NCBI GenBank assembly: GCA_003161615.1
Contig: PMOB01000006.1
Location: 62,001-126,000, forward strand
Direction of reading: 5' to 3'
DNA length: 64,000 nucleotides
Source of the DNA: Actinomycetota bacterium
Lineage (GTDB): Bacteria; Actinomycetota; Thermoleophilia; Gaiellales; Gaiellaceae
The notes below the pieces were generated by a model that worked only from the letters and a program-made list of their open reading frames with translations, did no database searches and was not told the DNA's origin. Position 1 is the first letter of the stretch, and every line of letters starts with the position of its first letter. The position numbers and the translations under genes are program-made. This document shows positions 5,236 to 17,670 of this stretch, piece after piece.

Positions 5236-6335
5236 CCCGCCGCCGCGCTCTCAGTCTCGCCCCGACGACGGCGCTCCCCATCCTCGGGCAGCTCCGCCTG
5301 CGCCGCCGACGGCATGACGCGCAGCATGGTGAACGAGAGTCCCTCACGGGCGAGGAAGAGGAGCCCGACGCCGATCCCGACCGAAGCCTCGATCGCCTGC
5401 AGCCCGAACCCGTACGCGACGCCGACGCTGTACGCGACGCCGTAGCCGGCGAGAGCCGACGCGATCGCGACCTGCACGAGGCCGACGTTGCCGGGCCAGA
5501 ACGGGAAGATCGTCACGACGTTCATCAGCAGGAGGACGACGCCCGCTGCCGGCAGAGGCGCATGGATGTCGAAGGCACGCATCGCGGTGTAGACGGCGAA
5601 GATCTGGCACGTCCAGCCGCAGATCTGGAAGAAGATCGCGAGCGCGGTGGCGCCGGGGGAGCGCATCACGTGCAGGCCCGCGCGCCCCATCGCCAGCAGC
5701 CGGCGCACCGGGCCGAGGTGCTCGAGCGAGACGAGCGCCGGCCTCCGGGCGGAAACGAATGCGAACACGAAGAGGCCGACGCCGAAGGCGATCACGGCCA
5801 GCAGGCTCTCCTGCGCCGACGTCGGGATGTTCGCCGTGGCGACGACGTAGAGGACGAGCAGGAGCACGGGGACGATGTCGAAGACGCGGTGCGCGAACAC
5901 CGTCCCGACGAGCGTCGCCCACGCTCCCTTCCGCCCCGGCAGCTTCCGCGTCAGCACGGCGACGCGCGCGAGCTCGCCGATCCGCCCCGGCAGGACGGCG
6001 TTGGCGAAGAGCCCGACGGAGAACGCGGAGAAGACGAGCGGCGCGTTCGGCCGCGGCGGCTCCATCGCGGAGTGGATCACGGTCGTCCAGGCGAGCGCGC
6101 GGACGACGACCGACAGCAGGTTGAGCGCGATCGCGACGACGACCCACTGCCAGCGGACGTGGGAGAACGCGGTCCCGATCGCCGAGAGGCTTCCGTGTCT
6201 CCACCACACGAGCGCAGCGAGCCCGCCGAGGAGGACGAGACCGGCGCCGACGCGAACCAGCGGACCGGCGGGCGGGCGGCGGAGACGGTTGGTGGGCGGA
6301 GGCGCGCCGTCCGGCTCGGATGTCCCTGGCTCCAT
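5232..6335 (-). CDS. Flippase-like membrane protein (UPF0104/LPG-synthetase TM domain)
   Basis: The 367 aa product has about eight membrane segments and the family pattern of AglD/YbhN-like proteins. This includes NAVLPGRIGELARVAVL near residue 115 and the FPFWPGNVGLVQ segment near residue 280. These proteins resemble the membrane half of lysylphosphatidylglycerol synthases and are proposed lipid flippases or lipid-linked sugar handlers; the substrate here is unknown. An N-terminal Pro/Arg-rich cytoplasmic stretch precedes the first helix. It is divergently arranged with the MATE gene, with only 25 bases between start codons. Confidence 0.8.
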   Translation of the reverse strand: MEPGTSEPDGAPPPTNRLRRPPAGPLVRVGAGLVLLGGLAALVWWRHGSLSAIGTAFSHVRWQWVVVAIALNLLSVVVRALAWTTVIHSAMEPPRPNAPLVFSAFSVGLFANAVLPGRIGELARVAVLTRKLPGRKGAWATLVGTVFAHRVFDIVPVLLLVLYVVATANIPTSAQESLLAVIAFGVGLFVFAFVSARRPALVSLEHLGPVRRLLAMGRAGLHVMRSPGATALAIFFQICGWTCQIFAVYTAMRAFDIHAPLPAAGVVLLLMNVVTIFPFWPGNVGLVQVAIASALAGYGVAYSVGVAYGFGLQAIEASVGIGVGLLFLAREGLSFTMLRVMPSAAQAELPEDGERRRRGETESAAAG

Positions 6336-6360
6336 CGGCCCATTATCGTCGGCGGCCCCG

Positions 6361-7662
6361 ATGCGCCTTCGCTCGCTTCACGACCGCGAGATCCTCCGGC
6401 TCGCGCTGCCCGCCCTCGGCGCGCTCGCGGCCGAGCCTCTCTACGTACTCGCCGACACCGCAATCGTCGGCCACCTCGGCCGCCCCCAGATCGCCGCGCT
6501 CGGCCTCGCGGGCACCGTTCTCGCGGGCGCGTTCACGATCTTCAACTTCCTGACCTACGGGACGACGGCTGTCGTCGCGCGCGCGTCGGGCGCCGGCCGG
6601 GAGGAGGACGCGGCGCGACTCGCGGCGCAGGCGCTTTGGGCCTCGCTCGGGATCGGCTTCGTCCTGCTCGTCGGCTGCGAGATCGTCGCCGCGCCGCTGC
6701 TGAGCGGGCTCGGCGGCCACGGCCGTTCCGGCCACTTGGCGCTCGTCTACTTCCGGATCGCCGCGATCGGGCTTCCCGCCGCCCTCGTCGCACTCGCCGG
6801 CCAGGGCTACCTCCGCGGCGTCTCGAACCTCCGCCGGCCGCTCGAGATCGTCGTCGTCGCGAACGCCGTCAACCTCGTCCTCGAGGTGCTGTTCGTCTAC
6901 GGCTTCCACTGGGGAATCGCGGGCTCGGCAGCCGGAACCGCGATCGCCCAGGCCGGGATGGGCGTCGCGTTCGTCGCCGAGTTGTTGCGGCCGCACGCGC
7001 CGTCGCGCCGGCCGAGCTGGCGCGAGATGCGGCCGATGGTGCGCGTCGGCCGGCAGATCTTCGTCCGCACCGCGGCGCTCTACGCCTCGTTCCTCGTCGC
7101 CGCGTCCGTCCTCGCGCGGATGGGCGACGCGGAGATCGGAGCGCACCAGATCGCGTACGAGCTCTTCATCTTCCTGGCCCTGATCCTCGATGCGCTCGCG
7201 ATCTCCGGGCAGGTGATCGTCGGGAGGATGCTCGGTGCCGGCGACGCCGACGGCGCGCACGCGGCCGCGACGCGGATGATCTGGTGGTCGGTCGCGATCG
7301 GCGCGGCCTTCGCGGCGATCCTCGCTCCTCTCTCCCACGCGCTGCCCGCGGCATTCACGAGCGACCCGCGCGTCCTCCATCAGGCCGCGCTCCTCTGGCC
7401 GTTCCTCGCCGCGATGCAGCCGCTCGGCGGCGCCGTCTTCGCGCTCGACGGGATCCTGATCGGCGCCGGCGACACGCGGTACCTGATGTGGTCGATGCTC
7501 GCTGCGAGCGCTGTCTTCATCACGCTCGCAGCCCTCGCACTCGCGCTCGGCTGGGGAGTGATCGGCGTCTGGGCGGCGCTCGACATCCTCATCGCCGCCC
7601 GGCTCGCGCTCCTCTGGCCGCGCTTCGCCCGCCGGCGCTGGGCGGTCGTAGGCTGGGACTAA
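6361..7662 (+). CDS. MATE-family efflux transporter (DinF-like)
   Basis: A 433 aa protein with twelve predicted membrane helices in two homologous halves. The opening REILRLALPALGALAAEPLYVLADTAIVGHLG pattern (quoted in part: PLYVLADTAIVGHLG) and the AGQGYLRGVSNLRRPL loop are typical of the DinF branch of the MATE family. Members use Na+ or H+ gradients to export organic cations or oxidised metabolites; the substrate cannot be read from sequence. The ATG at 6361 was chosen because it precedes the conserved first helix and upstream in-frame codons lie inside the divergent gene. The deaminase-family gene follows after nine bases. Confidence 0.87.
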   Translation: MRLRSLHDREILRLALPALGALAAEPLYVLADTAIVGHLGRPQIAALGLAGTVLAGAFTIFNFLTYGTTAVVARASGAGREEDAARLAAQALWASLGIGFVLLVGCEIVAAPLLSGLGGHGRSGHLALVYFRIAAIGLPAALVALAGQGYLRGVSNLRRPLEIVVVANAVNLVLEVLFVYGFHWGIAGSAAGTAIAQAGMGVAFVAELLRPHAPSRRPSWREMRPMVRVGRQIFVRTAALYASFLVAASVLARMGDAEIGAHQIAYELFIFLALILDALAISGQVIVGRMLGAGDADGAHAAATRMIWWSVAIGAAFAAILAPLSHALPAAFTSDPRVLHQAALLWPFLAAMQPLGGAVFALDGILIGAGDTRYLMWSMLAASAVFITLAALALALGWGVIGVWAALDILIAARLALLWPRFARRRWAVVGWD

Positions 7663-7671
7663 GATTCGCGG

Positions 7672-8700
7672 ATGGACGGGGGCCTCGCCGAGCTGCACAC
7701 CCATCTCGGCGGCTCGGTCCCGTCCGAGACTCTCTGGTCGCTCGCCCACGAGCAAGGGATCGCGCTACCGGTCAAGGACTTCTGGGATTTCGACCGGCTC
7801 GTCACCGTCTCCGACCCGCGCGGCGTCCCCGACCTCGACGCGCTCGACGCGATCTACCACTGGACGGAGCTCATCCAGTCGAGCCCGCTCGCCGTCGAAG
7901 TGTCTGTGCACGGCGCGATCGGCGGCGCGTACCGCTCGCAGGGGATCACGACGCTCGAGCTCCGCTTCAACCCGATGAAGAGGAACCGCGGCGGCGAGCG
8001 CGACCTCGACCACATCATCCTCGCCGCGATCCGCGGCCTCGACGTCGCGAGTCTCGAATACCCCCAGGTGCGCGCGGGCCTGATCCTGATGATGGACCGG
8101 ACGTTCACGGCGCGGCAGAACCAGATCATCGTGGAGAAGGCGATTCGCTGGGCGCCGCGCGGCGTGGTCGGGATCGACATCGCCGGGCCGCGGCCGGGCG
8201 GCGGACGCTACGACTACTCGCAGGTGCAGCCGATGGTCGAGGAGGCGCGCGCCGCTGGGCTCGGCGTAACGATCCATGTCGGCGAGGAGGGCGGCGAGTT
8301 CGGCCGGGAGGAGATCGGCGAGGTGCTCGAACTGCTGCGCCCCGACCGGATCGGACACGGGATCCTCGCCGCCGGCGACGCCGGCCTGATGAAGGAGCTG
8401 CGCGAGCGCGAGGTCGTGCTCGAGATCTGCCCGACCTCCAACCTCCTGACGAAGGCGCTGCCCGACGACGACGCGGTGCGCGACACCTTCCGCACCTTCG
8501 TCGAGAACGGCGTCCTGTTCACGATCGCGACCGACGGCCCGGAGATGATGCGCACCCACCTGCGCGACGAGTTCGACCTGCTGCTGCGCGTCGGCGCGCT
8601 GACGCAGGAGGAGCTCACCGAGGCGAACCGCCGTGGCCACGAGGCGAGCTTCGTGGGCGGTTCCCACACAGCCCGGGCGAATACTCCCGTCGGCCGATAG
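7672..8700 (+). CDS. Adenosine deaminase family protein
   Basis: This 342 aa amidohydrolase-fold enzyme retains the zinc ligands and proton shuttles of adenosine deaminases. It has HTHLGGS at the N-terminus (residues 9-15), HVGEEG near residue 202 (zinc His and catalytic Glu), RIGHG near residue 225, EICPTSN near residue 250, and an Asp in ATDGPEM near residue 287. The last motif is usually TDDP; here the second Asp, which contacts the purine in true adenosine deaminases, is Gly. The enzyme may therefore act on a modified adenosine or aminofutalosine-like substrate; that is inference. It follows the MATE gene closely. Confidence 0.82.
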   Translation: MDGGLAELHTHLGGSVPSETLWSLAHEQGIALPVKDFWDFDRLVTVSDPRGVPDLDALDAIYHWTELIQSSPLAVEVSVHGAIGGAYRSQGITTLELRFNPMKRNRGGERDLDHIILAAIRGLDVASLEYPQVRAGLILMMDRTFTARQNQIIVEKAIRWAPRGVVGIDIAGPRPGGGRYDYSQVQPMVEEARAAGLGVTIHVGEEGGEFGREEIGEVLELLRPDRIGHGILAAGDAGLMKELREREVVLEICPTSNLLTKALPDDDAVRDTFRTFVENGVLFTIATDGPEMMRTHLRDEFDLLLRVGALTQEELTEANRRGHEASFVGGSHTARANTPVGR

Positions 8701-8734
8701 CTCGCCCTCCCGCGTGGGCTTAGCCTGCCGCGCC

Positions 8735-9004
8735 ATGACCAGTAGAGACGAAAGACGGCCCGGCCTGACCGAGCGCCAGCTGCAGATCGTGGAGCTGATC
8801 GCACGCGGGTGCTCGAACGATGAGGTCGGCGAGCAGCTCGGCATCTCGCCGCGAACTGCGAAGGCGCACTGCGACGTGCTGCGGCAGAAGCTCGGCGTGC
8901 CGAGACGGCGGCAGATCCCTGCCGCATTCAGGGCCCTCACGGGCGAGGACCCCCTCGCCCTCGCCCAGGAGCCCGTGCCGGCCCTGGCCGGCATCGGGGG
9001 CTGA
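8735..9004 (+). CDS. LuxR-type HTH protein, DNA-binding domain only
   Basis: The 89 aa product is essentially one LuxR/GerE helix-turn-helix: LTERQLQIVELIARG, then NDEVGEQLGISPRTAKAHCDVLRQKLGV (quoted in part). It has no receiver or ligand domain. The ATG at 8735 starts just before the domain. It probably acts as a stand-alone DNA-binding protein or partner of another regulator. It is followed by a strong GC hairpin and then the broken large LuxR regulator at 9124. Confidence 0.8.
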   Translation: MTSRDERRPGLTERQLQIVELIARGCSNDEVGEQLGISPRTAKAHCDVLRQKLGVPRRRQIPAAFRALTGEDPLALAQEPVPALAGIGG

Positions 9005-9123: not shown

Positions 9124-11655
9124 ATGGTGGAGACGATCTCACCGGCGCTTTCGCCCGCGCTCGCGCACATCATCGAGCGCCCCAGGCTGATTGCGCGCCT
9201 CGAGGAAGGTGGCGGCTCGCGCGTCGCCGTCTTCGCGGCCCCGGCGGGGTACGGGAAGACGACGCTCGCGCGCCAGTGGTCGGAAAAGCAGTCAGGACAG
9301 GTCGCCTGATACCGCACGACGCGCGCCTCCGGCGATGTCGCTCTTCTCGCCGTTCAGTTCGACGAGCTCCTCGCCTCGCTCGCGCCCGACCTGCCGCGGG
9401 AGCCGGGCAAGGTCGCGTCGATCGCCTCCGTGAATCCCAGCCCTAAGCCGCTCGGCCGGGCGGTAGTGCGCACGTTCGAGCCGCTGGAGGAGGACATCCT
9501 GATCATCGTCGACGAGTGGGAGGCGGCCGAGACACCGGAGGCTGAGGAGTTTCTCTCGATGCTCGTCGACGGCCTCCACATTCGTTTCGTGATCACGACG
9601 CGGGAGCGGCCTGAGTGGTTCGTACCGCGGCTCGAGGTCTACGGCGAGGGGCTCGAGATCGGCGTGGACGAGCTCACGATGACGGATGACGAAGCCGCGG
9701 AGGTTCTCTCTGCCGCCGGCGCGGTCGCGGGTCGCGCACGCGTGATGCGGACGGCCGCCGGCTGGCCGGCGGTGCTGGGCCTCGCGGCGATGAGCGGCGA
9801 GGTGGACTTCACGTCCGACCGGCTCGTGTCGCACACGCTCTACGAATTCCTCGCCAGCGAGCTCGTGGCGTCCGCGGAGCCGGAGACGCGAGAGGCTCTG
9901 ATGCTCCTCGCCGTTGCCTCGGTCGTCGAGCTCGAGCGCGCGAAACAGCTCCTCGGCGACGGCGGCGAAGCGGCCCTAGCAGACGCCTCCGCGCGCGGCC
10001 TGCTGGCAATCACCGAGCGGAGCGCCCTCTTCTTCCACCCACTGCTGCGCGATCTGCTGATCCAGCGCTTCAGCGAAGTCGACGACGAAACGCGGTCGCA
10101 CCTCCTGACGCGGTGCCGCCGCCTGTTCGAGTTCCGGCTGTGGGATGAAGCGCTGTCGGTCGGGGAGCTGTCTCTGGATCCGGTCTTCGTCGCCGACGCG
10201 ATCGGCGTCGCATTGGACGATCTCCTCGCCGCAGGCCGCACGAGCAGCCTGGAGCGCTGGGTCATGTCCGCCCGCGCCGCGCACGCGAAGGGGCCTCTGG
10301 TGTCCTTTGCAGAGAGCGAATTCCTGTTGCGCCGCGGAGAGTTCGACGCTGCTGTGGCGATCGCGACGCAAGCAGCGCAGGATCTAGACGGCGACATCGC
10401 GGCTAGGGCGGACTTACTCGCCGCTCGGGCAGCTCACCTCGGAAACCGCCCAGGCGTCCGCGACAGACATCTCGCCCAAGCCGAGGAGAATGCAAAGAAG
10501 CACGAAACCAAGGCCGACCTGCTATGGCTGAAGGTAGCGGCGGCGGCAGCCAGCGAAGATGCAGGAACCGAACCCCTCTTCGATCAACTCGAGAAGCTCC
10601 CGAGAGGCGGGTTCGACCACTCGCTACGCGTCGCGACTGGCCACATTCACCTCGGTCTCCTAGTCGGGCGATTGACGGAGCGGCTCGAGGAGGCTGAGGC
10701 AAGGATCGCGGCGCTGGACAAGGCCACCGATCCGTATGCGCAGAGTTCGGTGCTGAATCTCTATGCCTCGGCGTTGATCGCCGCAGGGCGCTATGGAGAG
10801 GGGTTGGCTGCTGTTGAGAAAGAACTGAGCCTTGCAGAGGAATATGGATTCGAGTTCGTAGTCTGTTACGGCTTCGCGAACAAGACCTGGGCGCTCGCCG
10901 GGCTTCGACGCCTCCCCGAGGCGCGTCGAGCCCTTACCGTGTTGGAGCGCTGTCTTTCGTCATCACCAGACCCGTTTGTTGAATGCCAGCGATCGATCTA
11001 CGCCGCAACCCTTCACATCGCCGAGGGCGATCTCGAGCGAGCTTCCAACACACTCATGAGCGGGCAGGATCCGCGCGCCGGGGTGACCCAACGCGGGGAA
11101 CATCGCGCATTGCATGCCTTAGTGCTTGCGGCACTCGGGCGTGGGAGAGAGGCTGAGCACTATGCCGACGCAGCTCGGCACTGCTCGCGCGGAGTCGAAA
11201 CGCGAGCACTTCTCGCCGGCGCCTCAGCCGTGGAAAGTATTCATAAGGGCAACCGGAAGCAGGCGCTTGAGGCGTATGAGGAGATAGCGACGCTTGGCGT
11301 ATGGAACGCACTGGTGGTCGCTTGGCGCGCGTGCCCTGATCTGGCGGCTGTCCTAATGGAGGACTCGGAGCGACGCGAGCGGATGTTGCCGCTGCTGATC
11401 GGGGCAAATGATCGCGATATCGCCCGGCGCGCAGGCGTACCGATTCCGCGCGAGGCAAGACCGCGCGGGGTTCTGTCGGCGCGCGAGCGCGAAGTACACG
11501 AGCTAATTGCTCAGGGTCTGACGAACGACGAGATCGCAAAGCTCTTGTACATCAGCCTCTCGACGACCAAGGTTCACGTGAAACACATTTTCGAGAAGCT
11601 CGGGGTTAGATCGCGCATCGAGGCCGCGCGGCTTTGGGACAACGAGCGGGACTAG
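9124..11655 (+). pseudogene. LuxR-family ATP-binding regulator (MalT/LAL-like) with an in-frame TGA
   Basis: One reading frame of 844 codons encodes a large ATP-binding LuxR regulator. It has a P-loop APAGYGKTTLARQW (about residues 40-53), a Walker B-like ILIIVDEW (about residue 122), winged-helix and TPR-like repeats, and a C-terminal LuxR helix-turn-helix (LSAREREVHELIAQGLTNDE). A TGA at 9307-9309 interrupts it in frame at residue 62. Family members have Trp at this spot (Val-Ala-Trp before the next strand), so a single TGG to TGA change explains it. Everything after the stop stays open for 782 codons. The rest could start at a GTG at 9430, but that product would lack the P-loop. Composition is less GC-rich than the neighbours, most clearly from about 10,400 on. 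Confidence 0.85.
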
Positions 11656-13040
11656 TTCCCTGCGTCGACTGCTAGCGCCTCGACCAGCGTGACATCAGAC
11701 TCAAACTCGCCAGCGGGTTCCTCGTGGTCGAACCGAAAGCGTTCGCCGAGCGCAGTCCGATATGCCTCGTCTTCCGAAGTCAACACCGCTTCGAACGCCG
11801 CGACCACTGCGGTGTCGAACTGGCTTTCCACAGCCTGCGCCAGGCGAAGGCGCGCGACACGGCTCGGAAGCTTGTCACGATACGGGCGGTCGGACGTCAT
11901 CGCGTTATAGGCGTCTGCGACGGAGATGATCTTCGACAGGAGCGGGATTTCGTCCGCACGAAGGCCGTCGGGGTAGCCCTCGCCGTCGATCCTTTCATGG
12001 TGGTGCCGGACGATTCGGCCGATCCGTCCGTGGTCCTCGACCTCGACCTTCCGAAGGAGCTGCTCTCCGTACTCGGGATGCTTTTCCATCAGCCGCCGCT
12101 CCTCGAGCGACAGTGGTCCGTTCTTTTCCAGGAGTGCGGCCGGAAGACGGTACTTGCCGATGTCGTGTACCAACGCGCAGAGATGTACGAGATTGCGATC
12201 GTCGTCCGCAAGCCCCATCCGTTCGGCGATGTCGTGCGAATAGGTTGCTACCGCTAGCGAATGACCCGCGGTGTAAGGGTCGCTCTCCTCGAGCATCGCC
12301 ACGAGCCCTGTGGCAAAGCGCGCATTTGCGGTCCTAAGTCGGGCGTTTGCTGCTTCCAGGCTTCGTGACGCCTCCTTTTCCTGTTGATAGAGGTGAAGAA
12401 GGCGCTGAGCCGCGAGTGTTGGGACGAATACGACGAGGACGAGCCGGAGCGAGTACGCGTGATACCCGTAAACGAACAGCGCGACGATCGGCACGTAGAG
12501 CGGAACCGTCAGCAACGAGACAGCTCCGATGGCCGCGAGACCTGCCTTCCAATCGGCGCGGCGGACGATACCCGTCCCGGCGACCAGCACGGCCTCAGCG
12601 GCTTGGTCGGCGACCGAGGCTGCCAAACTCGCGAGGAAGTACGTGCCCACGTCATTTGCGCCATGCAAGAAGGGGGCGGCAGCTAGGCCGGCGGCCGCCG
12701 CCATCAAGCCTCCAATCGGCGTGTAGACAGCCCATTTCAGTCGCGATTCGCGGATGTCCCAGGCGTTAGAGATCGCACCGACCGCGAAGCCCCCGATTGG
12801 GCCGAATACGACGGCCGCAAACACAACGGGGAGAAACGAGACGGACATCGTGGCGCGCTCCGTCACGGCCACGCTCTGTCGTTCGGCAATTGCAGCAACT
12901 GCACCGAGCACGACAACTGCCCAGAGAGGCGGCAGCCGGTAACCGTCCATCCAAAGCGCAGCAACGGCGCCTGCGGATGCGACCGCCAGCACGACCGCCC
13001 AAGCGGCGCTTCGTCTGTCGACGGGACTAGACCGACGCAC
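11652..13040 (-). CDS. Membrane HD-GYP domain protein (putative c-di-GMP phosphodiesterase)
   Basis: The N-terminal half has about seven hydrophobic segments, similar in style to MASE-type sensor domains. A coiled linker is followed by an HD-GYP domain with GHSLAVATYSHDIAERMG, the HDIGK metal motif and HHHERIDGEGYP, matching the HHExxDGxGYP signature. Such enzymes hydrolyse cyclic-di-GMP. A GTG at 13040 is chosen because it follows an AAGG ribosome-binding sequence and places an inverted repeat in the leader; a TTG at 13121 would add 27 residues. The stop shares CTAG with the stop of the convergent LuxR regulator. It is less GC-rich than the bulk of the window. Confidence 0.88.
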   Translation of the reverse strand: MRRSSPVDRRSAAWAVVLAVASAGAVAALWMDGYRLPPLWAVVVLGAVAAIAERQSVAVTERATMSVSFLPVVFAAVVFGPIGGFAVGAISNAWDIRESRLKWAVYTPIGGLMAAAAGLAAAPFLHGANDVGTYFLASLAASVADQAAEAVLVAGTGIVRRADWKAGLAAIGAVSLLTVPLYVPIVALFVYGYHAYSLRLVLVVFVPTLAAQRLLHLYQQEKEASRSLEAANARLRTANARFATGLVAMLEESDPYTAGHSLAVATYSHDIAERMGLADDDRNLVHLCALVHDIGKYRLPAALLEKNGPLSLEERRLMEKHPEYGEQLLRKVEVEDHGRIGRIVRHHHERIDGEGYPDGLRADEIPLLSKIISVADAYNAMTSDRPYRDKLPSRVARLRLAQAVESQFDTAVVAAFEAVLTSEDEAYRTALGERFRFDHEEPAGEFESDVTLVEALAVDAGN

Positions 13041-13056
13041 GATTGAAGCCAGCCTT

Positions 13057-13082
13057 GCGTATCCCCCAGAAGGGGTATACGC
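13057..13082. promoter_or_regulatory. C-block/G-block inverted repeat upstream of the HD-GYP gene
   Basis: GCGTATCCCCC and GGGGTATACGC face each other around AGAA, with one unpaired base. It lies 17-42 bases upstream of the chosen HD-GYP start. The same kind of repeat (ATCCCCC-N4/5-GGGGGAT) occurs at several other places close to signalling genes in this window, which suggests an operator rather than a terminator. There is no T run on either side. Confidence 0.45.
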
Positions 13083-13222
13083 TGCGGCTGCCGTCAGTCC
13101 CCGATCGATCGGAGTTCTCAATGCGTCGTTCGCTTATCCGCCTTGCCGTCCGCTCTGCCGCGGTCGGCCAGGGCAAGATCTGGTAGAGCCGTCGGATAGT
13201 CCGTTATCCACAGCCTGTGATC

Positions 13223-13358: not shown

Positions 13359-13691
13359 CTAGGCGATGAGCCCGCGACGAAAGCCGACGGCAACGGCATG
13401 AGCACGCGAGCGCGCCTGCAGCTTCGCGAGTAGATGGCGGACGTGAGACTTCACCGTCTCCTCCGACAGGAACAGCCGCTCGCCGATCTCCCGGTTCACG
13501 AGGCCGTCGGAGATGAGCTGCAGCACCTCGATCTCCCGCCCCGTCGGCTCCTGCTCGAGCGCGCGTGTCGGGGTCTGAAGCGAGATCACGTCCCCGCCGG
13601 GCCCCCCGCGCCGGCGCGCCGCCACTTCCTCGAAGCGGCGCGAGTGCGTGAGGTACCGGCTGAGGATCTCCTTGCGCTCAGCAGCGTCCAC
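13359..13691 (-). CDS. Small LuxR-family DNA-binding protein, 110 aa
   Basis: After a 45-residue charged N-terminal segment comes a LuxR/GerE helix-turn-helix: LTG-like PTGREIEVLQLISDGLVNRE, then RLFLSEETVKSHVRHLLAKL. There is no receiver domain. The C-terminal extension is basic (HAVAVGFRRG). An inverted repeat (ACTCCC/GGGAGT) lies 24 bases upstream of the ATG and may be autoregulatory. Together with the genes at 8735, 9124 and 11652 it forms a signalling cluster. Confidence 0.85.
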   Translation of the reverse strand: MDAAERKEILSRYLTHSRRFEEVAARRRGGPGGDVISLQTPTRALEQEPTGREIEVLQLISDGLVNREIGERLFLSEETVKSHVRHLLAKLQARSRAHAVAVGFRRGLIA

Positions 13692-13736: not shown

Positions 13737-16010
13737 CTAACTCGACCGTGCCGGCCGCACGCAGATCGTCGCGTAGTCGAACTCGTAGAGGACGTTGTTC
13801 ACGTAGCAGCCGAGGTCGACGCGCGCGCTGAAGAAGTCGGTTTCCTTGCGATTGAGGAACGGCGCCCACGGTGCGAGGCGCATCACCTGCAGGTCGAGCT
13901 GCGCCCAGCGCGCGTCCACCTTCGAGGTGAGCTTCGGCTGGCGCGTCAGCGCGTCGATCTTCCGATTGACCGACGGCGAGTCGAAGTACGCGTAGTCGTC
14001 GTTGTGCGTCGGCCGGATCTGCTGGCCGTTGAGCAGGACGCCGAACCAGTCGAGCGGGTGCGGGTAGTCCTGGAACCAGTCGGCGAAGCCGATCTGCGCG
14101 CGCGTCGTCCCCTCGCCCAGCGTCGCCCAGTAGTCGCTCGCCGTCAGGACGCGCTCGCGGACTTTGAAGCCGAGCTTGCGGAGGACGGAGGCGAGGTACT
14201 CGGTGAACGGCAGGTCGGCGGCGACGTCGTGGTTCCAGACGACAACGCGCTTCCCGCGCTCACCCGACTCGCGCACAAGCTTGCGCGCCAGGCGCAGGTC
14301 GTGCCGGTAGAGGTGATGCCGGCGGAAGGACGGATAGTCCGGCGGCAGGACGTTCTCCGTCGGCTTCGCGAGCCCGCCCGCGAGCTCCACCAGCGTCCGG
14401 CGCGAGATCGCGTAGTTCACCGCCCGCCGCACCGCGAGCTTGTCGAACGGCGCGACACGCGTGTTCATGAAGAAGTAGAGAAGGTTCGGCGTCGTGAACT
14501 TCTCGAGGCGCTTCGGGTACTTCCTCTGGATGCTCGCCAGCCGCTTGCTCGGAACCGGCCAGTAGCTCATCCAGTCGTCCTTGCCCTGGATGACGCGGCG
14601 CAGCGCGACACCGGCGTTCGGGACGACGTCCCACGTGACGCGGTCGGGATTGCCGGCCGGCACCGCGCCGTGGAACTGCCAGGCGTGGAAATACGGATTC
14701 CGCACCTCGACGATCCGCGCGCGCGGCTGGTAGCTCTGGATCACATACGGCCCCGTCGCGGGCAGCGGGTGGAGCGAGGTGTCGGCGCGCGGCGCGCTTG
14801 CCGGGACGGGAGCGGCGAACTCCGACGCGAGGATGTTCTCGAAGTCGCCCTCGGGCGCGCGGAGATGGATGACGATCGTCCGCTTCCTGTCGTTGACGAC
14901 GATCCCGGGGATGCCGCCCTTCTGGCGCTGCGCGAACCCCTTCGCGCCGATGATGTCGCGGAACAGGCCGGCACCGGCCGAGTCGAGGATGAAGTCCCGC
15001 TCGATCGCTGCTTTGAAGTCGCCCGCCTTGACGCGCGTCCCGTTCGAGTAATGGAGGTCTTTGCGCAGCGTCAGCGTGTACGTCCGCTTGTCCGGCGAGA
15101 CGGTCGGCAGCGCCCGCGCAAGGTAGGGGACGAGCTTCGCGCCGTCCAGCCCGCTGTCGTGCTTGTAGCCGAGGAGCGGTAGGTAGACGTTCCACATGAC
15201 GCCCCAGCCCTCGGTCGAGTCCGACAGGCCCGGGTCGAGGTAGTCCGTCGACTCGTCCATCGCGATCCGGAAGTCGGGGAAGGCGTGCGGTGCGCCGGTG
15301 GGCTTCGCGGGCTTCGGAGCCGCGACCGTCACGGTCGTGGCATGCGTCGTGCCGGGCGGAGCGGCGCTCTCCTGGCTCCCGCAACCGACGAGGGCGAAGA
15401 ACGACAGAGCCGCTACGAAAGCGCCGAAGCGGACGAGGGCGCGGCGGCGCGCACGCAGCTCCGCGGGCTCGTCCTCCTCCACGACGCCGTCGACGCCCTC
15501 GCGGCGCGTCGAGTGGAGGATGCGCCCGCCGCCGAGCCAGAACGCGATGTGATCGGCGCTTTCCGGCGGTCCGTACGTGATGAGGTCACCGGCACGGAGC
15601 TCGTCTTCGCCGAGCTTCTCGCCCGCCGCCTCCTGCTCGTCGGCGTCGCGGGGAACGAGCGTGCCGGTCGCCCGAAAGGACATGTGGACGAGTCCAGAGC
15701 AGTCGATACCCGCAGCGGTCATTCCTCCCCATTCGTAGCGGGTTCCGAGCAACGACCGCGCGTAGGCGACCGGATCGGCCCCCCGCGCCGCGAGCCATTC
15801 CGGGTCGGCGTCGCCACCAAGTGCCTCGCGGCGGATCCAGCCGGGATACGCGTACGCGGTCTCGACGCGCGCCCACTCGCCGCGCTCCTCAAGCACGCGA
15901 AGCGGCTCGCCGGCGCGCGCCTGCGTGACCTGCTCGGCATCGTCTCTCGGTTCCGCCCGCAGTGGTGCCAGCTGGCGCGCAAACGTATGTTCGCCTACGC
16001 TCTCCGCCAT
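13737..16010 (-). CDS. NlpC/P60 hydrolase fused in frame to an oligopeptide-binding lipoprotein
   Basis: One open frame of 757 residues joins two normally separate proteins. Residues 1-175 are an SH3b-like segment plus an NlpC/P60 cell-wall peptidase (GIDCSGLVHMSFR with catalytic Cys; DHIAFWLGGGRILHS with catalytic His). Directly after RRRALVRF comes a hydrophobic signal and lipobox (FFALVGCGSQ), then a family 5 solute-binding domain to the end (DSTEGWGVMWNVYLPLLGY, DFENILASEF, DWFQDYPHPLDWFG). The binding part alone could start at a GTG at 15482, giving a 581 aa lipoprotein. If made as one chain, the hydrolase would sit on the cytoplasmic side of an internal signal, which is unlikely to be useful. 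A lost stop codon or internal initiation is therefore suspected. Confidence 0.8.
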   Translation of the reverse strand: MAESVGEHTFARQLAPLRAEPRDDAEQVTQARAGEPLRVLEERGEWARVETAYAYPGWIRREALGGDADPEWLAARGADPVAYARSLLGTRYEWGGMTAAGIDCSGLVHMSFRATGTLVPRDADEQEAAGEKLGEDELRAGDLITYGPPESADHIAFWLGGGRILHSTRREGVDGVVEEDEPAELRARRRALVRFGAFVAALSFFALVGCGSQESAAPPGTTHATTVTVAAPKPAKPTGAPHAFPDFRIAMDESTDYLDPGLSDSTEGWGVMWNVYLPLLGYKHDSGLDGAKLVPYLARALPTVSPDKRTYTLTLRKDLHYSNGTRVKAGDFKAAIERDFILDSAGAGLFRDIIGAKGFAQRQKGGIPGIVVNDRKRTIVIHLRAPEGDFENILASEFAAPVPASAPRADTSLHPLPATGPYVIQSYQPRARIVEVRNPYFHAWQFHGAVPAGNPDRVTWDVVPNAGVALRRVIQGKDDWMSYWPVPSKRLASIQRKYPKRLEKFTTPNLLYFFMNTRVAPFDKLAVRRAVNYAISRRTLVELAGGLAKPTENVLPPDYPSFRRHHLYRHDLRLARKLVRESGERGKRVVVWNHDVAADLPFTEYLASVLRKLGFKVRERVLTASDYWATLGEGTTRAQIGFADWFQDYPHPLDWFGVLLNGQQIRPTHNDDYAYFDSPSVNRKIDALTRQPKLTSKVDARWAQLDLQVMRLAPWAPFLNRKETDFFSARVDLGCYVNNVLYEFDYATICVRPARSS

Positions 16011-17670
16011 GCAGCTCAGGCTAGACGCGGCCGACCGGCTGGTGGAACTCGTGGAGGAGCGGCGCGGGCCGGTGGCCGCCGAGGACGCGGCGCGCCAGCT
16101 CTTCGCGCTGCGCCAGGCTCCTGTCGCGCTCGCGCGCTCGCTCCTCAGCGAGGTCGTCGAGGCCGACGCGCGCCTCGCATGGAACGGCGACACGGTCGGG
16201 CTCGCACAGCCGCCCGGCGCCGGCCTCCTGCTCGAGGACGCAACGTACGTCGTCGTCGACCTCGAGACGACCGGGCTCCGGCCCGGCCAGTCGGGGATCT
16301 GCGAGATCGGAGCGGTGCGGATCCAGGCGCTCGAGCCGGCCGGCGAGTTCGAGACGCTCGTCAACCCGGGAATGCGAATCGCGCCGGGCGCGTCGGCTAT
16401 CACCGGCCTGCGCGACGAGCAGCTCCGCGGAGCGCCTCGGCCGCAGGAGGCCGTGCGGCGCTTCCTCGACTTCGCCGGCGACGCGGTGCTCGTCGCCCAC
16501 AACGCGCGCTTCGACCTCGCCTTCCTCGACCGCGAGACGGAGCTGCTGACGGGCTCGCGCATCGCCGCACCGGTCGTCGACACGGTGCTCCTCGCGCGAA
16601 AGCTGCTTGCGGGGCGCGTCGCGGGCTTCTCGCTCGGGCAGCTCTCGTGGTTCCTCGGGACGACCGAGCGGCCCTGCCACCGGGCGCTCCCCGATGCGCG
16701 CGCGACGGCCGAGCTCCTCCTCGCTCTGATCGGGCTCGCGCAGGAACGCGGTGCACGGACGGTCGCCGATCTCGGCGCGCTCGCCGCGACGCGCAACCGC
16801 CGGCTCCTCGACAAGCGCCATCTCGCGTTCGGCGCTCCGACCAGTCCCGGCGTCTACCTCTTCCGCGGCCGCGGCGACCAGGTGCTCTACGTCGGCCGGG
16901 CTCGCGACCTGCGGGCGCGGCTTCGCTCCTACTTCCGCAGCGACCGGCAACGCCCCGCGGTCGAGGCGGCGCTCGGCGCGACGGAACGGATCGAGTGGCG
17001 CGTCCTCGGGTCGGAGCTCGAAGCCGCGCTCGCGGAGCTGCGGCTGATCCGGGAGCTGCGCCCGCCGGGAAACGCGCGCGTCTCGCGGCCGGAGCGCCAT
17101 GTCTGGCTGCGAGCGCGCGGCGACTCCGTCGTCGCGTCGACGCAGCCGTCCCCGCTCGGCCCGCTGCGCTCGCGGCGGCAGGCGCAGCTCGCGGCGCGGG
17201 CCTTGAAGCCGGACGAGCTCGTGTCGCCGTCCGCCGCGCTGCCCCGGCTGCGACGCCGTCTCCGCGAGCTCTCGGACGCGCGCCGCTTCGAGGACGCGGC
17301 GAGGCTCCGCGACCGGATCGGAGCGCTCGAACGCGTCTGCCGCGAGCTCGAACGGCTCGAGCGGCTGCGGCGGATGGAGTGCTGCCTCCTTGTACCCGCT
17401 GCCGAGGAGAGCTACGTCACCGCGGTGTTCGTCGCCGGTGGCGGCGTCGTCGCGGAGCGAACGCTGCCGCCTGGAGGCGGCGCCGCGCTCGAAGTCGAAG
17501 CCGGCCTCGCCGCTGCGAGACGCGCCGCGACAGCAGGCGGCGAGCTCCAGCTCGACGAAGTGCTCCTCATCGACTCGTTCCTCCGCCGCCCGCCGCCCGA
17601 GCTGCGGGTCGCGCCGCTCGCGCGCACGGCGATCCTTCATGCGGCGGAGGCGGTTCCCCGGGGCGGCTAG
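16009..17670 (+). CDS. DEDDh exonuclease fused to a GIY-YIG/UvrC-like nuclease
   Basis: The 553 aa protein starts with an about 75-residue helical domain. It continues with a DnaQ-type exonuclease (VVVDLETTGL with D84 and E86; AHNARFDLAFL; CHRALPDARAT with the His-Asp pair). A GIY-YIG domain follows near residues 280-310 (SPGVYLFRGRGDQVLYVGRA), then a UVR-like segment (DARRFEDAARLRDRI). This is the actinobacterial DnaQ-Cho type fusion, probably acting in DNA repair. Its ATG overlaps by two bases with the divergent hydrolase ATG (CATG at 16008-16011), so each gene's ribosome-binding region lies inside the other. Confidence 0.88.
   Translation: MQLRLDAADRLVELVEERRGPVAAEDAARQLFALRQAPVALARSLLSEVVEADARLAWNGDTVGLAQPPGAGLLLEDATYVVVDLETTGLRPGQSGICEIGAVRIQALEPAGEFETLVNPGMRIAPGASAITGLRDEQLRGAPRPQEAVRRFLDFAGDAVLVAHNARFDLAFLDRETELLTGSRIAAPVVDTVLLARKLLAGRVAGFSLGQLSWFLGTTERPCHRALPDARATAELLLALIGLAQERGARTVADLGALAATRNRRLLDKRHLAFGAPTSPGVYLFRGRGDQVLYVGRARDLRARLRSYFRSDRQRPAVEAALGATERIEWRVLGSELEAALAELRLIRELRPPGNARVSRPERHVWLRARGDSVVASTQPSPLGPLRSRRQAQLAARALKPDELVSPSAALPRLRRRLRELSDARRFEDAARLRDRIGALERVCRELERLERLRRMECCLLVPAAEESYVTAVFVAGGGVVAERTLPPGGGAALEVEAGLAAARRAATAGGELQLDEVLLIDSFLRRPPPELRVAPLARTAILHAAEAVPRGG

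Follow-up and report, generated by a model that had tools for sequence, protein, structure and literature searches.

A putative recent nonsense change at a conserved tryptophan codon in a MalT/LAL-type regulator gene of a Gaiellaceae genome

The closest described systems to the gene analyzed here are MalT, an HTH-type regulator and STAND ATPase of Escherichia coli (PDB 8bob), and the actinobacterial LAL regulators, a name that one account applies to LuxR regulators that bind ATP and carry one DNA-binding motif (PMC9628970). Like them, the gene encodes an N-terminal P-loop NTPase, a long middle region, and a C-terminal LuxR HTH, and the conserved Trp after its P-loop is that of MalT. Unlike these systems, however, the allele bears a stop codon, TGA, at this Trp, and its score against the NCBIfam equivalog model for MalT (NF003420; 117.9 bits over residues 12 to 358) falls short of the curated threshold of 537. 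This marks the gene as one for a MalT-like STAND/LAL regulator rather than for MalT itself. The gene lies in a stretch of 64,000 nucleotides (here, the window) of contig PMOB01000006.1, from an actinobacterial genome of 2.32 Mb in 35 contigs that is 95% complete and, like its kin, was presumably assembled from a metagenome.

Translation of positions 9124 to 11658 gives 843 codons closed by a TAG (11653 to 11655), and the sole break is the TGA at codon 62, with 61 residues before it and 781 open codons after it (Table 1). This agrees with the first-pass annotation, which had described a frame open except for one TGA and undamaged downstream, LuxR domain included: the LuxR/GerE domain is recognized by PF00196 (E value of 8.9e-17), and neither a further stop nor a frameshift was found. 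The distance of 11 codons that it gave between the P-loop and the TGA was a minor miscount; since the P-loop occupies residues 39 to 47, the actual distance is 15. The genome contig that holds the locus (G000:C8) carries identical bases, but it belongs to the same assembly and is thus not independent evidence.

The N-terminal part matches the P-loop NTPase of MalT with an E value of 1.6e-14 over residues 12 to 316, a match that exists in the protein only if the stop is read through; it aligns with MalT residues 12 to 332. The Pfam AAA_22 match to the same part reaches 23.1 bits, under its cut-off of 27. LAL and MalT-like regulators are expected to have some 800 to 900 residues in a single frame, and the orthologue frames measure 834 to 946 residues from stop to stop, whereas the 843 codons of the window gene are broken at codon 62. 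It is the only LAL/MalT-type gene detected in its own genome, where the remaining matches cover no more than the short LuxR domain. Ahead of the HTH, the middle and C-terminal part (10324 to 11655) evolves much faster, with 27 to 41% identity to the orthologue of genome G009, the nearest full-length relative, versus 70 to 83% in the first 300 columns, and its third-position GC is lower (0.62 to 0.70 versus 0.85 to 0.89).

Table 1. Features of the regulator gene and of the surrounding locus (window coordinates)
Feature	Position	Strand	Basis or remark
MATE transporter	within 5875-7662		before adenosine deaminase
Adenosine deaminase	7672-8700	+	
Short LuxR HTH protein	within 8633-9004	+	
MalT/LAL-type STAND ATPase LuxR regulator gene, one stop inside	9124-11655	+	translation, domain and homologue matches
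P-loop (Walker A) APAGYGKTT, residues 39-47	9238-9264	+	translation; conserved in homologues
In-frame TGA, codon 62, at conserved Trp	9307-9309	+	translation, homologue alignment
GTG, first in-frame start codon past the stop; no Shine-Dalgarno-like sequence	9430-9432	+	sequence
ATG, GAGGAG nine bases upstream	9559-9561	+	sequence
LuxR/GerE DNA-binding domain, residues 783-837	11470-11634	+	PF00196
HD-GYP-like protein	11652-13121	-	convergent to regulator gene
Second short LuxR HTH protein	13359-13691	-	

The position of the stop is strongly conserved. Among 34 aligned homologues, which include some loci fetched twice, 33 have Trp at this position and one has Arg; the Trp of E. coli MalT aligns with it as well, and an intact orthologue of 842 amino acids, aligned end to end with the window frame, has Trp at exactly the same place, an agreement that exceeds coincidence. 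All four close orthologues (G009, G010, G011, and G005) use TGG. These results uphold the earlier proposals that the family has Trp at this spot and that a change from TGG to TGA is the simplest cause. A comparison with relatives, which the first-pass annotation had called for, found them undamaged: of 103 family genomes searched, 75 gave a match, and a stop within the 201-residue region examined occurs only in the match from the genome itself. A stop that falls exactly on a conserved Trp, that is TGG in orthologues, and that is the sole one among these matches favors a nonsense change.

The same precision, together with the preserved downstream frame, is what would be expected if read-through of the TGA, with insertion of Trp or some other residue, gave a full-length regulator, an option that had been raised earlier. 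Yet across 33 conserved window genes, Trp stands opposite 128 Trp residues of relatives and a stop opposite only one, at codon 62; TGA is the terminator of 15 of the 33. All 45 tRNAs matched in the genome carry ordinary anticodons, with CCA as the only one for Trp, and no suppressor with a UCA anticodon is among them, although the genome is roughly 95% complete and such a tRNA could conceivably lie in the missing part; one tRNA cut by a contig end has the anticodon TCC (glycine), as read by eye. Hence neither a UGA-reading tRNA nor another conserved Trp encoded by TGA, the marks of suppression or recoding, was found, and the stop has no counterpart in any matched relative. Read-through therefore seems very improbable. 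A change of genetic code is ruled out by the Trp codons, the terminators, and the tRNA complement, and the ordinary use of TGA as a stop favors a nonsense change over recoding.

To judge whether the gene has decayed, we compared it with its relatives. The alignment with the G009 orthologue runs over the full length with zero frameshifts. With G005 as the outgroup, relative-rate tests give 74 unique residues in the window gene and 73 in G009, 27 against 23 in G010, and 36 against 32 in G011; the window lineage has no excess of changes and shows no sign of long-term relaxed constraint. Where it differs from G009, the third codon position is affected most (0.369, 0.280, and 0.576 differences per codon at the first, second, and third positions, respectively). 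Depending on the transition bias assumed, the 781 downstream codons contain about 56 to 71 effective sites for nonsense changes, and not one of these has become a stop; by a simple Poisson argument, constraint was lost, if the stop is real, less than about 0.04 to 0.05 neutral substitutions per site ago (95% upper bound). An older pseudogene is ruled out by the absence of other lesions and of rate acceleration, and the earlier view that the change is recent and free of further damage is borne out. The gene thus has a single inactivating change, intact orthologues, and no relaxation of constraint, as ordinary recent nonsense alleles (young bacterial pseudogenes) do. Nothing distinguishes this putative allele from them.

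The first-pass annotation had further proposed that reinitiation at the GTG would yield a constitutive DNA-binding form without the P-loop. This codon is indeed the first in-frame start after the stop; nevertheless, no Shine-Dalgarno-like sequence precedes it, and the proposal draws no support other than from the open frame. The better-placed ATG at 9559, preceded by GAGGAG, would remove not only Walker A but also the Walker B-like stretch ILIIVDEW. Moreover, this GAGGAG consists of Glu-Glu codons, for which orthologues carry GAGGAA or GAGGAG, and so it is no evidence of an evolved start. The open frame and the retained LuxR domain fit a shorter protein that starts at either codon and binds DNA without ATP control, but long selection for such a product should have altered constraint on the N-terminal part, and none of this is seen; we consider it a slim prospect. 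It is hardly credible that the cell tolerates the stop as a regulatory feature of this allele, be it through a low level of functional full-length protein from UGA read-through or through a functional restart product without the NTPase half.

The main rival to a nonsense change is an error of consensus or base calling, or a minority allele taken up by the assembler, with the gene intact in the organism. One altered base in a gene that otherwise shows no decay, the sole disruption seen among the conserved genes of the window, in a genome whose kin are metagenome assemblies, is what this would produce. General assembly damage is ruled out, as there is no convincing case of another disruption in these genes; the few other stops in their alignments lie, by eye, upstream of likely starts or in probably non-coding frames. 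Errors are thus infrequent over the window's conserved genes, and substitutions that happen to create a stop are rare among errors, which leaves this account possible yet less likely. A scan of genome contigs for a copy from the same species or a nearer one returned only a 55% relative (JAICJI010000006.1, from a Thermoleophilia metagenome-assembled genome) and distant matches, and a literature search for accounts of premature stops in genomes assembled from metagenomes yielded no paper. As the evidence is one base in one assembly, it does not tell error from mutation.

The best and the probable explanation, in our view, is that a recent single-base nonsense change, either fixed or still polymorphic, has inactivated the one LAL/MalT-type copy in the genome, given the intact downstream frame, the balanced counts of unique changes, and the otherwise undisturbed conserved genes. 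A very recent change in the sampled population would have created the TGA and truncated the regulator just past its P-loop; the base is then presumably real in the organism and the truncated product presumably inactive, so that the allele would yield no functional regulator. The relative weights given here to this reading and its three rivals are our judgement and were not computed. The stop is an ordinary finding, with no suggestion of novel decoding, and it is of little importance: regulators often acquire single nonsense changes of recent origin. A real base would make the gene a natural null allele for an uncharacterized LAL regulator at a conserved locus, and an erroneous one would caution against building on a single base of a single assembly.

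The surrounding gene order recurs, whole or largely, in G009, G001, G005, G002, and G012. Namely, a genus-wide cassette comprises adenosine deaminase, a short LuxR HTH protein, the LAL regulator, a convergent HD-GYP-like gene, and a second short LuxR HTH protein, which may form a signalling unit. The LAL match is missing from G006 and G013, but in both the contig stops no more than about 430 bases from the adenosine deaminase gene; therefore, these genomes do not demonstrate gene loss. The locus is conserved across the genus wherever it is assembled, and so lends no separate indication that cells can do without the gene. In several relatives (L014 and L044 of G011, L015 and L041 of G010, L141 of G013, and L142 of G006), the contig breaks off within the LAL gene or shortly ahead of it, as though this locus were difficult to assemble, perhaps owing to strain variation. 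Beyond the cassette, a single frame on the minus strand (13740 to 16814) joins SH3, NlpC/P60, and family-5 solute-binding (SBP_bac_5) domains in an unusual combination; its far end overlaps a conserved plus-strand gene, so its true start is probably near 15960.
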